From the NCBI RefSeq assembly GCF_002067135.1, contig NZ_CP020105.1, forward strand, positions 2,232,001 through 2,296,000: a stretch of 64,000 nt of DNA, read 5' to 3'. Below, piece after piece: positions 10,823-12,361 of this stretch. The notes under the pieces are model-generated. The model was not told where the DNA came from and did no database searches. It saw nothing but the letters and a program-made list of their open reading frames with translations. Source of the DNA: Spirosoma rigui (GTDB lineage: Bacteria > Bacteroidota > Bacteroidia > Cytophagales > Spirosomataceae). Made by a program: the position numbers and the translations under genes. Numbering within the stretch: the first letter of the stretch is position 1; each line of letters starts with the position of its first letter.

Positions 10823-11275
10823 TTATTTTCGAGCCAGAAAGGTGTAGGTGGGTCGTGCCGATAGAATTATCGATTGTCCGTTTTTTCGCTGCGCTGCCAA
10901 GGTGAACACAAATGTTACGTGGTCTCCGGGTTGCGCACGTTGAATCAGGTTACTTGCCCGATCCGCATTTGGTATATTCACCTGCGCTAGTTTACGGCCA
11001 TTCCGGATTAGAAGAACCTGCGTGTTTTCAATGCGTAATTCTGATTTAAAATCATCGGAGAAACTAGCTACTTTTCTGTCCAGTGAAGCGTCAAAACGAA
11101 ACTCTTTCGTATCTATTTTTACGCCTGTTTGTTGATCCACTAACGTATTGTCTGAATAAACAGCGACCTTGATTGGCGGTTTTTCGACGGAGACTACGGG
11201 TTGATCGCTAGCTTGAGCGAACAAGCTGTTCACCGACATTACAAAACATATCGAAGCTAAACTGATAAATTTCAT
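10823..11275 (-). CDS. Exported protein resembling a single GldM C-terminal domain
   Basis: A 150-residue protein with a clear signal peptide (MKFISLASICFVMSVNSLFAQ). The mature part has the pattern of the last domain of GldM/PorM, the T9SS motor protein: an FRFDASLDRKVASF strand pair, then QPGDHVTFVF and a final beta strand ending at TYTFLARK. GldM itself is a large membrane protein; here the domain stands alone and is periplasmic. The family call is an inference from strand spacing and short motifs, and no partner gene is beside it. Confidence 0.55.
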   Translation of the reverse strand: MKFISLASICFVMSVNSLFAQASDQPVVSVEKPPIKVAVYSDNTLVDQQTGVKIDTKEFRFDASLDRKVASFSDDFKSELRIENTQVLLIRNGRKLAQVNIPNADRASNLIQRAQPGDHVTFVFTLAAQRKNGQSIILSARPTYTFLARK

Positions 11276-11371: not shown

Positions 11372-11404
11372 AAAAAAAGGCCGGACCCAGTAAGGTCCGG
11401 CCTT
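11372..11404 (-). terminator. Rho-independent terminator of the metallothionein-like gene
   Basis: On the minus strand an 11-bp perfect stem (AAGGCCGGACC and its complement, 11377-11387 with 11394-11404) with a 6-base loop is followed directly by a run of T (positions 11378-11372). It lies 26 bp past the stop codon at 11431. Confidence 0.85.
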
Positions 11405-11430
11405 GCTATATACCAAGCAGATGATAAAGC

Positions 11431-11550
11431 TTACCTGCTATTGCAGCCGTTATCCCGGCAGCAGTCGCAGGTGCACTGGCCGCTGGCGCAGCAGTCGGGC
11501 GTACAGGTGCAGGTTTGAGCACACAGAGCAGGCTTTTCAGTCGTAGTCAT
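11431..11550 (-). CDS. Metallothionein-like cysteine-rich peptide (39 aa)
   Basis: This gene is too short for normal gene calling. Translated from ATG at 11550 it gives 39 residues beginning MTTTEKPALC, with ten cysteines (26%) at 10, 14, 16, 20, 21, 26, 28, 30, 31 and 36. The pattern contains CTC, CC, CTCDCC and no aromatic residue, which is the signature of a metallothionein. It probably binds soft or borderline metals such as Cu(I), Zn or Cd in the cytoplasm; the metal is not readable. It is bounded by a -7 box upstream (11615-11608) and a strong terminator downstream (11404-11372), so it looks like a complete single-gene unit. It lacks the SmtA/GatA zinc-finger-like pattern of cyanobacterial metallothioneins, so it would be a separate type. 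Confidence 0.72.
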   Translation of the reverse strand: MTTTEKPALCAQTCTCTPDCCASGQCTCDCCRDNGCNSR

Positions 11551-11607
11551 AACCGGGTTCGTTTAAAAACATGAGCGAGCAACGCTGATAGATCTCCATC
11601 AGCTGAA

Positions 11608-11615
11608 CAAAGATA
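11608..11615 (-). promoter_or_regulatory. -7 promoter box of the metallothionein-like gene
   Basis: TATCTTTG on the minus strand matches TAnnTTTG. No TTG is found at 19-21 bases upstream, so only the -7 half is supported. The leader would be about 50 bases. Confidence 0.5.
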
Positions 11616-11749: not shown

Positions 11750-12361
11750 TCAGAAACGCCAGATCAACTGCGTTTGTACGCCAAGGGCATACGAGAGATA
11801 CTTCGTGTAGCTGTAAAAGGCATCGCTGGCGGGCCGGTAAAAGGAGTAGCTGGCGGTTGGTTGAACCAGCAGGGATAAACCAGTATCAATCCGGTAGTGC
11901 ACACCTACGCCCACTACCCCGTCGGTTGTGAGCGGGCGGGCCGTAAACGTCCGGCTTCGGGTGAGCGTGGCCCCGGCCGAAAAATAGGGGGACAAACGAT
12001 GGTCATTTAACCGGTAGTTGACCAGAACTGGAATTTGCCATCCTTTGCTGATAAAGGGGGTGGGCTCACCGTACGGACTCAGCGGACTCTTGGGGTAGTT
12101 GGTGTGTCGGTAGTAAAGGGCTCCGGCTGAGACATCCCACCGGGGGGTGAACTGATAGCGGGCCGTTAAGCCAACGGACGAAATCAGGCTATGGCCGGAT
12201 GCCAGCGTCCGCAGTGTTGACGAGTTAACGGTAGCGTTGATGCGGTACGAGTAGGGGTTGTAATTGAACCAGTACGTAGGTGCTATCGACACGCGGCTTT
12301 GGGCCGCTGCGAGCGACAGCGATACGATGAATAAACCGACTGAAAGTAGAAGAGATTTCAT
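11750..12361 (-). CDS. Outer membrane beta-barrel protein (OmpA/PorT-like small barrel)
   Basis: A 203-residue protein with signal peptide MKSLLLSVGLFIVSLSLAAAQ. The mature part is about eight amphipathic strands with alternating hydrophobic residues, many Tyr/Ser/Thr and a C-terminal aromatic residue (LIWRF), the usual end of an outer-membrane barrel. It resembles the small eight-stranded porin-family proteins (outer membrane protein beta-barrel domain) of Bacteroidota. It is monocistronic on the minus strand. Ligand and function are unknown. Confidence 0.75.
   Translation of the reverse strand: MKSLLLSVGLFIVSLSLAAAQSRVSIAPTYWFNYNPYSYRINATVNSSTLRTLASGHSLISSVGLTARYQFTPRWDVSAGALYYRHTNYPKSPLSPYGEPTPFISKGWQIPVLVNYRLNDHRLSPYFSAGATLTRSRTFTARPLTTDGVVGVGVHYRIDTGLSLLVQPTASYSFYRPASDAFYSYTKYLSYALGVQTQLIWRF

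Follow-up and report, generated by a model that had tools for sequence, protein, structure and literature searches.

Copper metallothioneins of fungi and insects are peptides of 25–40 residues, rich in CxC motifs, that bind Cu(I) and are under eukaryotic regulation. For bacteria, PMC7387436, a paper of 2020, notes that just two metallothioneins had by then been studied for what they do biologically; it describes SmtA as serving zinc detoxification under the control of the SmtB repressor, and the Pseudomonas metallothioneins as histidine-rich proteins that bind zinc and cadmium. MymT, the mycobacterial copper metallothionein, is needed for copper resistance and has a predicted capacity of as many as six Cu(I) ions, and the Csp copper storage protein is a four-helix bundle (both as outlined in parts of PMC7558416). 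Within the titles and abstract openings of the open-licence papers listed, no metallothionein of the kind presented below has been described in Bacteroidota.

The locus considered here is a small cysteine-rich gene on the minus strand of the window, by which we mean the whole 64-kb stretch of DNA that was analysed. Its translation, MTTTEKPALCAQTCTCTPDCCASGQCTCDCCRDNGCNSR*, has 39 residues and 10 cysteines in the layout C-x3-CTC-x3-CC-x4-CTC-x-CC-x4-C, contains no F, W or Y and no histidine, and shows no signal peptide by eye. The sequence traits of a metallothionein, namely small size, a high cysteine content in CxC and CC clusters and few or no aromatic residues, are therefore all found in this protein and, with 11–12 cysteines, in its relatives. 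The window protein gave zero matches to Pfam and NCBIfam at E≤10, and the five known members together gave zero matches to Pfam and PHROG at the same threshold.

Relatives were sought by translated search of 36 genomes of the same genus and 222 genomes of the family. Four convincing ones were found, with E-values from 6e-8 to 8e-12, two in the same genus (G030 and G031) and two in another genus of the family (G145 and G146), giving five carriers among the 222 family genomes when the genome of the window is included. All five copies are 39 codons long and share the core CTCTPDCCASGQCTCxCC. Position 35 is glycine in the window copy and cysteine in the other four, and the four relatives hold a single histidine between them, in G030 and outside the core. 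Within codons 14–31, 64 of the 72 nucleotide differences, summed over ten non-independent pairs of the five copies, fall at third positions, a bias that points to a selected, protein-coding frame. On the sequence evidence, the 39-codon gene is thus a real and conserved one.

The distribution of the gene appears to be narrow. At E≤0.01 the family search lists eight of the 222 genomes, of which three (G025, G113 and G144; E 0.002–0.01) were dropped as chance, two having internal stops and one being a 22-residue match. The genus search at E≤1 returned some match in 20 of 36 genomes, and only those in the genome of the window (G000), G030 and G031 were kept. Three other matches (G337, G487 and G882; E 0.00098–0.0086) were also set aside as chance, two with an internal stop and one covering 14 residues. 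No convincing member outside the family came from partly overlapping samples drawn at the level of order (390 genomes), phylum (395) and class (395). As far as the evidence goes, then, the gene is rare and limited to two genera, and its rarity (5/222) marks it as accessory. Neither a tblastn search of plasmid and phage sequences nor a strict cysteine pattern run on viral contigs found a match. A relaxed eight-cysteine DNA pattern applied to the genome contig collection hit at least 119 stretches, and no relative was seen by eye among the 106 short frames listed, which by eye are mostly poly-cysteine readings of repetitive DNA; such patterns mostly catch readings of this sort, and cysteine counts alone are hence a poor criterion for short genes.

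The original prediction had been of a complete minus-strand gene of 39 codons with ten cysteines and no aromatic residue. The translation confirms the frame, and that it is more than a chance arrangement is borne out by the third-position bias of the core and by the four homologues, which have the same 39-codon frame, promoter box and downstream hairpin; a loss of the cysteine frame or the appearance of stop codons, for which close relatives were to be checked, is seen in none of the four. The further proposals, that the product is a cytoplasmic metal buffer and a new short type in Bacteroidota distinct from the SmtA pattern, gain support as well, the metal buffer as a putative function: the cysteines are conserved, no signal peptide is seen by eye, and Pfam, NCBIfam and PHROG matches are lacking.

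Table 1. The 39-codon gene, its control elements and its neighbours in the window
Feature	Position	Strand	Evidence or recurrence
Metallothionein-like coding sequence, 39 codons	11550-11431 (11431..11550, stop included)	minus	translation, four homologues, third-position bias
Direct repeat 1, ATTCTGCAA	11659..11667	minus	conserved in G030 and G146 (21-bp spacing) and in G145 (22 bp); degenerate in G031
Direct repeat 2, ATTGTGTAA	11638..11646	minus	21 bp from repeat 1, 22 bp ahead of -7 box; shared with copper genes
Bacteroidota-type -7 box, TATCTTTG, fits TAnnTTTG	11615-11608	minus	TAnnTTTG in all five homologues
Inverted repeat AGCTGAT..ATCAGCG at predicted transcript start	11604-11583	minus	shared with G030 and G146; weak in the G145 and G031 copies
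Intrinsic terminator, perfect 11-bp stem AAGGCCGGACC / GGTCCGGCCTT and T-run	11404-11394 / 11387-11377, T-run to 11372	minus	sequence and folding
Downstream neighbour, exported-looking, GldM_4th-like, not part of the unit	10823-11275	minus	GldM_4th 20.5 bits, cut-off 24.6 (sub-threshold)
Outer-membrane beta-barrel gene upstream, outside the unit	11750-12361	minus	PF13505 37.9 bits, cut-off 28.7

The likely identity of the metal, which the original prediction did not name, comes from the promoter. When the five upstream regions are aligned, the TAnnTTTG box lies 55–70 bp ahead of the ATG in every copy, and upstream of it stand two repeats resembling ATTnTGTAA, set 21 bp from each other (22 bp in G145, and with the first repeat degenerate in G031), the second of which ends 22 bp ahead of the box (21 in G031). 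A composite pattern of repeats and box, allowed up to three mismatches, has 82 matches spread over 32 of the 36 same-genus genomes, against five for the reversed pattern. The frame downstream of all 82 places was picked by script and assigned to a class by BLAST comparison with a single representative of each. Genes for CopA (9), HMA-type chaperones (18) or Csp-type proteins (7) follow 34 of the matches; five more precede a gene for an AraC-type regulator, nine HYC_CC_PP-like genes, one a DUF3347 gene and two the 39-codon gene itself, in the genome of the window and in G030. The remaining 31 fall to six ice-binding-like, five PSCyt/PSD1 and two SDR genes and 18 unclassified places, three of them with no 60-codon frame downstream; since these genes have no evident copper role, signals other than copper may act on the element or on paralogous regulators. 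G145 and G146 together yield seven matches and none to the reversed control, lying before two HYC_CC_PP-like genes, one AraC-type regulator gene, one SDR gene, two unclassified genes whose proteins begin with an MHCGSC stretch, and the 39-codon gene of G146. With its fixed spacing the pattern recovers the 39-codon gene in the genome of the window, G030 and G146, and misses it in G031, owing to the degenerate first repeat, and in G145, owing to the 22-bp spacing.

The classes differ in how firmly they are assigned. CopA of the genome of the window passes the copper-translocating ATPase model TIGR01511 with 592.6 bits (cut-off 397), the model being passed by both CopA proteins scanned, this one included. 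The 116-residue Csp representative passes DUF326, with a Csp1 match below cut-off; the HYC_CC_PP representative, at 24.7 bits, is just below its cut-off of 28; and the three chaperones scanned have weak HMA matches that are sub-threshold only (E 0.005–0.06). A copper role for the uncharacterised HYC_CC_PP-like and DUF3347 families is presumed from the company that they keep under the promoter element. Nine HYC_CC_PP-like loci are among the best element matches, seven of them with one mismatch. Six ice-binding-like (PF11999) genes carry the element, and on contig 212 of G030 an AraC-type regulator homologue adjoins the element site of such a gene. PSCyt/PSD1-type genes in five genomes have a conserved variant of the element, with three mismatches each, which may answer to another regulator. 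An SDR gene with a three-mismatch copy is found in the genome of the window, in G019 and in G145 (loci L222:8510-9446, L179 and L250).

The association with copper was also approached from the copA side, with genes chosen by protein homology to CopA of the genome of the window and not by motif. A match was present in all 36 genomes, and 900 bp ahead of the best copA were retrieved for 30 of them. The full pattern occurs in 22 of the 30 upstream regions at up to four mismatches and in 28 at up to six; the reversed pattern never falls below eight mismatches, and 60 letter-permuted patterns give 0/30 at up to four. The two repeats without the box are present in 23/30 at up to three mismatches, compared with 0/30 for the reversed control. 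The copA site of the genome of the window has three mismatches; one of the sites with at most four mismatches lies 781 bp ahead of its copA, so far off that it may serve a different gene. A promoter matrix built from 27 copA sites, with that of the genome of the window left out, places the promoter of the 39-codon gene first in the 64-kb window on both strands, at 33.4 bits against 4.6 for the runner-up and a mean of -48, although the matrix is partly circular because the copA sites were located inside their upstream regions with a pattern derived from the 39-codon gene. Twenty base-by-base shuffled windows reach at most 13.2 bits with a similar matrix (25 sites, the G030 and G031 copA also left out), and the four homologous promoters score 20–29 bits, each as the top site of the 18–20 kb locus fetched. 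Sharing its promoter element with copA and other copper genes points to copper as the metal, and we put the probability that the product is a cytoplasmic Cu(I) metallothionein belonging to a copper regulon at roughly 80%; it would most likely represent a short family that is absent from the libraries searched.

A zinc or cadmium metallothionein akin to SmtA/BmtA, or a general scavenger of d10 metals, is an unlikely reading, though the likeliest of the alternatives. Cysteine content alone cannot tell metals apart, and this CopA clears the cut-off of the cadmium-type model TIGR01512 too (386.3 bits against 313.5), the copper model scoring far higher. Against such a protein stand the absence of any Pfam match for the five members even at E 10, the lack of histidine and aromatic residues in the window protein, and the element common to copA, Csp-type and HMA-type genes.

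The surroundings of the gene bear on the other alternatives. Both the -7 box and the perfect 11-bp stem with T-run (11404-11372) of the original prediction were recovered as described, the box recurring in all five copies. The stretch from the stop codon onward, terminator included, folds at -29.7 kcal/mol, and a hairpin stands just 3' of the gene in all five genomes, differing in sequence each time, with folded stretches of -18 to -30 kcal/mol; the T-run behind it is clear in the genome of the window and in G145 and G146, whereas that of G030 is interrupted and G031 has next to none. The inverted repeat at the predicted transcript start may form a 5' hairpin or serve as a second operator. As for the flanking genes, the outer-membrane barrel first proposed holds, its PF13505 match being above cut-off, and the gene called GldM-like has to be reduced to a sub-threshold GldM_4th similarity; neither neighbour accompanies the gene in any of the other four genomes. 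There the gene stands next to a DDE_3 transposase-like protein (G030), DUF1572 and rhodanese-thioredoxin proteins (G031), a phosphatase and an aminotransferase (G145), and a histidine kinase and a weakly TonB_C-like protein (G146). Comparison of the flanking frames of at least 80 codons, over 18–24 kb in all per genome (BLASTP, 1e-5), finds them unrelated among the five genomes save for histidine-kinase-type matches of 26–37% identity, of which only the G146 partner adjoins the gene, and one protein pair in G030 and G146 about 6 kb from it (34 and 42%). As the box and hairpin recur while the neighbours differ, the gene looks like a free-standing promoter-gene-terminator cassette.

A short cysteine-rich frame could also encode the precursor of a modified or secreted peptide, such as a RiPP, a disulfide-rich bacteriocin or an extracellular chelator. 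We consider this improbable. A PDB profile search of the 39-mer gives one match, the peptide palicourein, at chance level (E 2.6), and the third of the frames examined around the G030 copy encodes a generic methyltransferase; set against these, no signal peptide is apparent by eye, the two or three nearby frames per genome include no recurring, recognisable maturase or exporter, and the neighbours are not conserved. Somewhat less probable still is a poly-cysteine leader peptide, on which ribosomes would stall to control a downstream gene, with the hairpin as attenuator terminator. Cysteine-rich attenuator frames are known in mycobacteria, and an intrinsic terminator does lie immediately 3' of this short frame, but the orientation of the genes largely refutes the idea: the gene and the nearest following frame of 80 codons or more are convergent in two genomes, G031 and G145, so that the hairpin there cannot attenuate a following gene. 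In addition, the downstream genes differ in all five genomes, and the TPD and ASGQ stretches are conserved as well as the cysteine codons. A regulatory sRNA with an incidental frame, for which the short discrete unit and its hairpins (5' in three of five copies, downstream in all five) might be taken, is barely credible given the third-position bias of the core and the equal length of the frame in five genomes, which indicate selection on the protein.

Returning to the Cu(I) metallothionein, its regulator is probably of the AraC type. The half-sites of AraC are 21 bp apart, and direct repeats with this spacing near a -7 box suit an activator of that kind; a LytTR reading of the repeats was dropped in view of the AraC-type regulator genes that follow the motif. 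The regulator genes under the element, five of the 82 and one of the seven in G145 and G146, encode an N-terminal VCxRC motif, and homologues are present in all nine genomes searched (the five carriers and four without a pattern match). In the genome of the window the regulator (N-terminal MVCDRC; gene at about 3,885,646-3,886,215 on contig C1) belongs to a locus at about 3,885,646-3,886,669 (L258:1519-2542), in which it lies directly 5' of a Csp-type gene and behind a TonB-dependent receptor gene. Two points weigh against the AraC-type regulator: its N-terminus resembles HMA weakly (E 0.22), and this locus has no site above 8 bits, so that autoregulation and membership of Csp in the regulon find no support in this genome. 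By coordinates, regulator and Csp are adjacent in G002, G007, G031 and G035 too. On plasmids pSLIN01 and pSLIN02 of Spirosoma linguale DSM 74, annotated AraC-type regulators adjoin copper-translocating ATPases, with genes for DUF305 proteins and multicopper oxidases coming next; the element lies ahead of the regulator on pSLIN01 and between regulator and ATPase on pSLIN02, the G010 contigs having been equated with these plasmids by inference. Titles and abstract openings of the open-licence papers listed describe no AraC-type copper regulator in Bacteroidota, and in a paper on the copper genes of Bizionia argentinensis, a member of this phylum, 'AraC' is absent from the main text as available (PMC11213822).

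A tentative mechanism can be drawn from these observations. Rising cytoplasmic copper would be sensed by an activator, most likely the AraC-type regulator with its HMA-like CxxC N-terminus, which would bind the two 21-bp-spaced repeats just 5' of the -7 box and turn on the monocistronic 39-codon gene together with copA, the HMA-type chaperones and other copper genes. The 10–12 cysteines, arranged as CxC and CC pairs, would then enclose a number of Cu(I) ions as a thiolate cluster, and the peptide would hold the metal until the chaperone and CopA route exports it. Csp is encoded in 113 of the 222 family genomes and in all five carriers, which rules out the 39-codon gene as a replacement for Csp; it would add to Csp storage. 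Taken at its widest, the proposal is that the gene founds a new family of bacterial copper metallothioneins of minimal size, that it is carried as a cassette at unrelated places in few genomes, and that it has joined a Bacteroidota copper regulon. The driver of this regulon would be a new cytoplasmic copper sensor that combines an HMA-like CxxC module with a DNA-binding domain of the AraC type and acts on the 21-bp-spaced repeats; this whole we regard as only slightly favoured.

If so, a further type of metallothionein, with its likely metal readable from the promoter, would widen the class, and 39-codon genes would be shown to join metal regulons. The shared element also ties HYC_CC_PP-like, DUF3347 and AraC-type regulator genes to copper genes, as a candidate copper-sensing circuit of Bacteroidota. 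Set beside the known systems, the 39-mer resembles the fungal and insect copper metallothioneins by general description, not by alignment. With SmtA/BmtA and the Pseudomonas proteins it shares membership of a class of small bacterial metal-thiolate proteins, and differs from SmtA/BmtA in matching no family profile (0 Pfam matches for 5/5 members at E≤10, which covers PF02069, the family of the SmtA/BmtA and Pseudomonas metallothioneins), in lacking histidine in the window copy and in its copper-gene promoter element. The Csp-type proteins (DUF326) are a Cu(I) sink, which is also the role proposed for the 39-mer, and share the motif, as seen above in seven of 82 matches; they are distinct in size, the representative having 116 residues against 39, and the 39-mer has no PF03860 match. 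MymT is likened to it by description and not by sequence: both are tiny, cysteine-rich and initially unannotated, as the relevant part of PMC7558416 relates for MymT, which is a 4.9 kDa protein from a different phylum. By analogy, the 39-mer would work like MymT, on copper, rather than like SmtA or the histidine-containing Pseudomonas metallothioneins, on zinc and cadmium.
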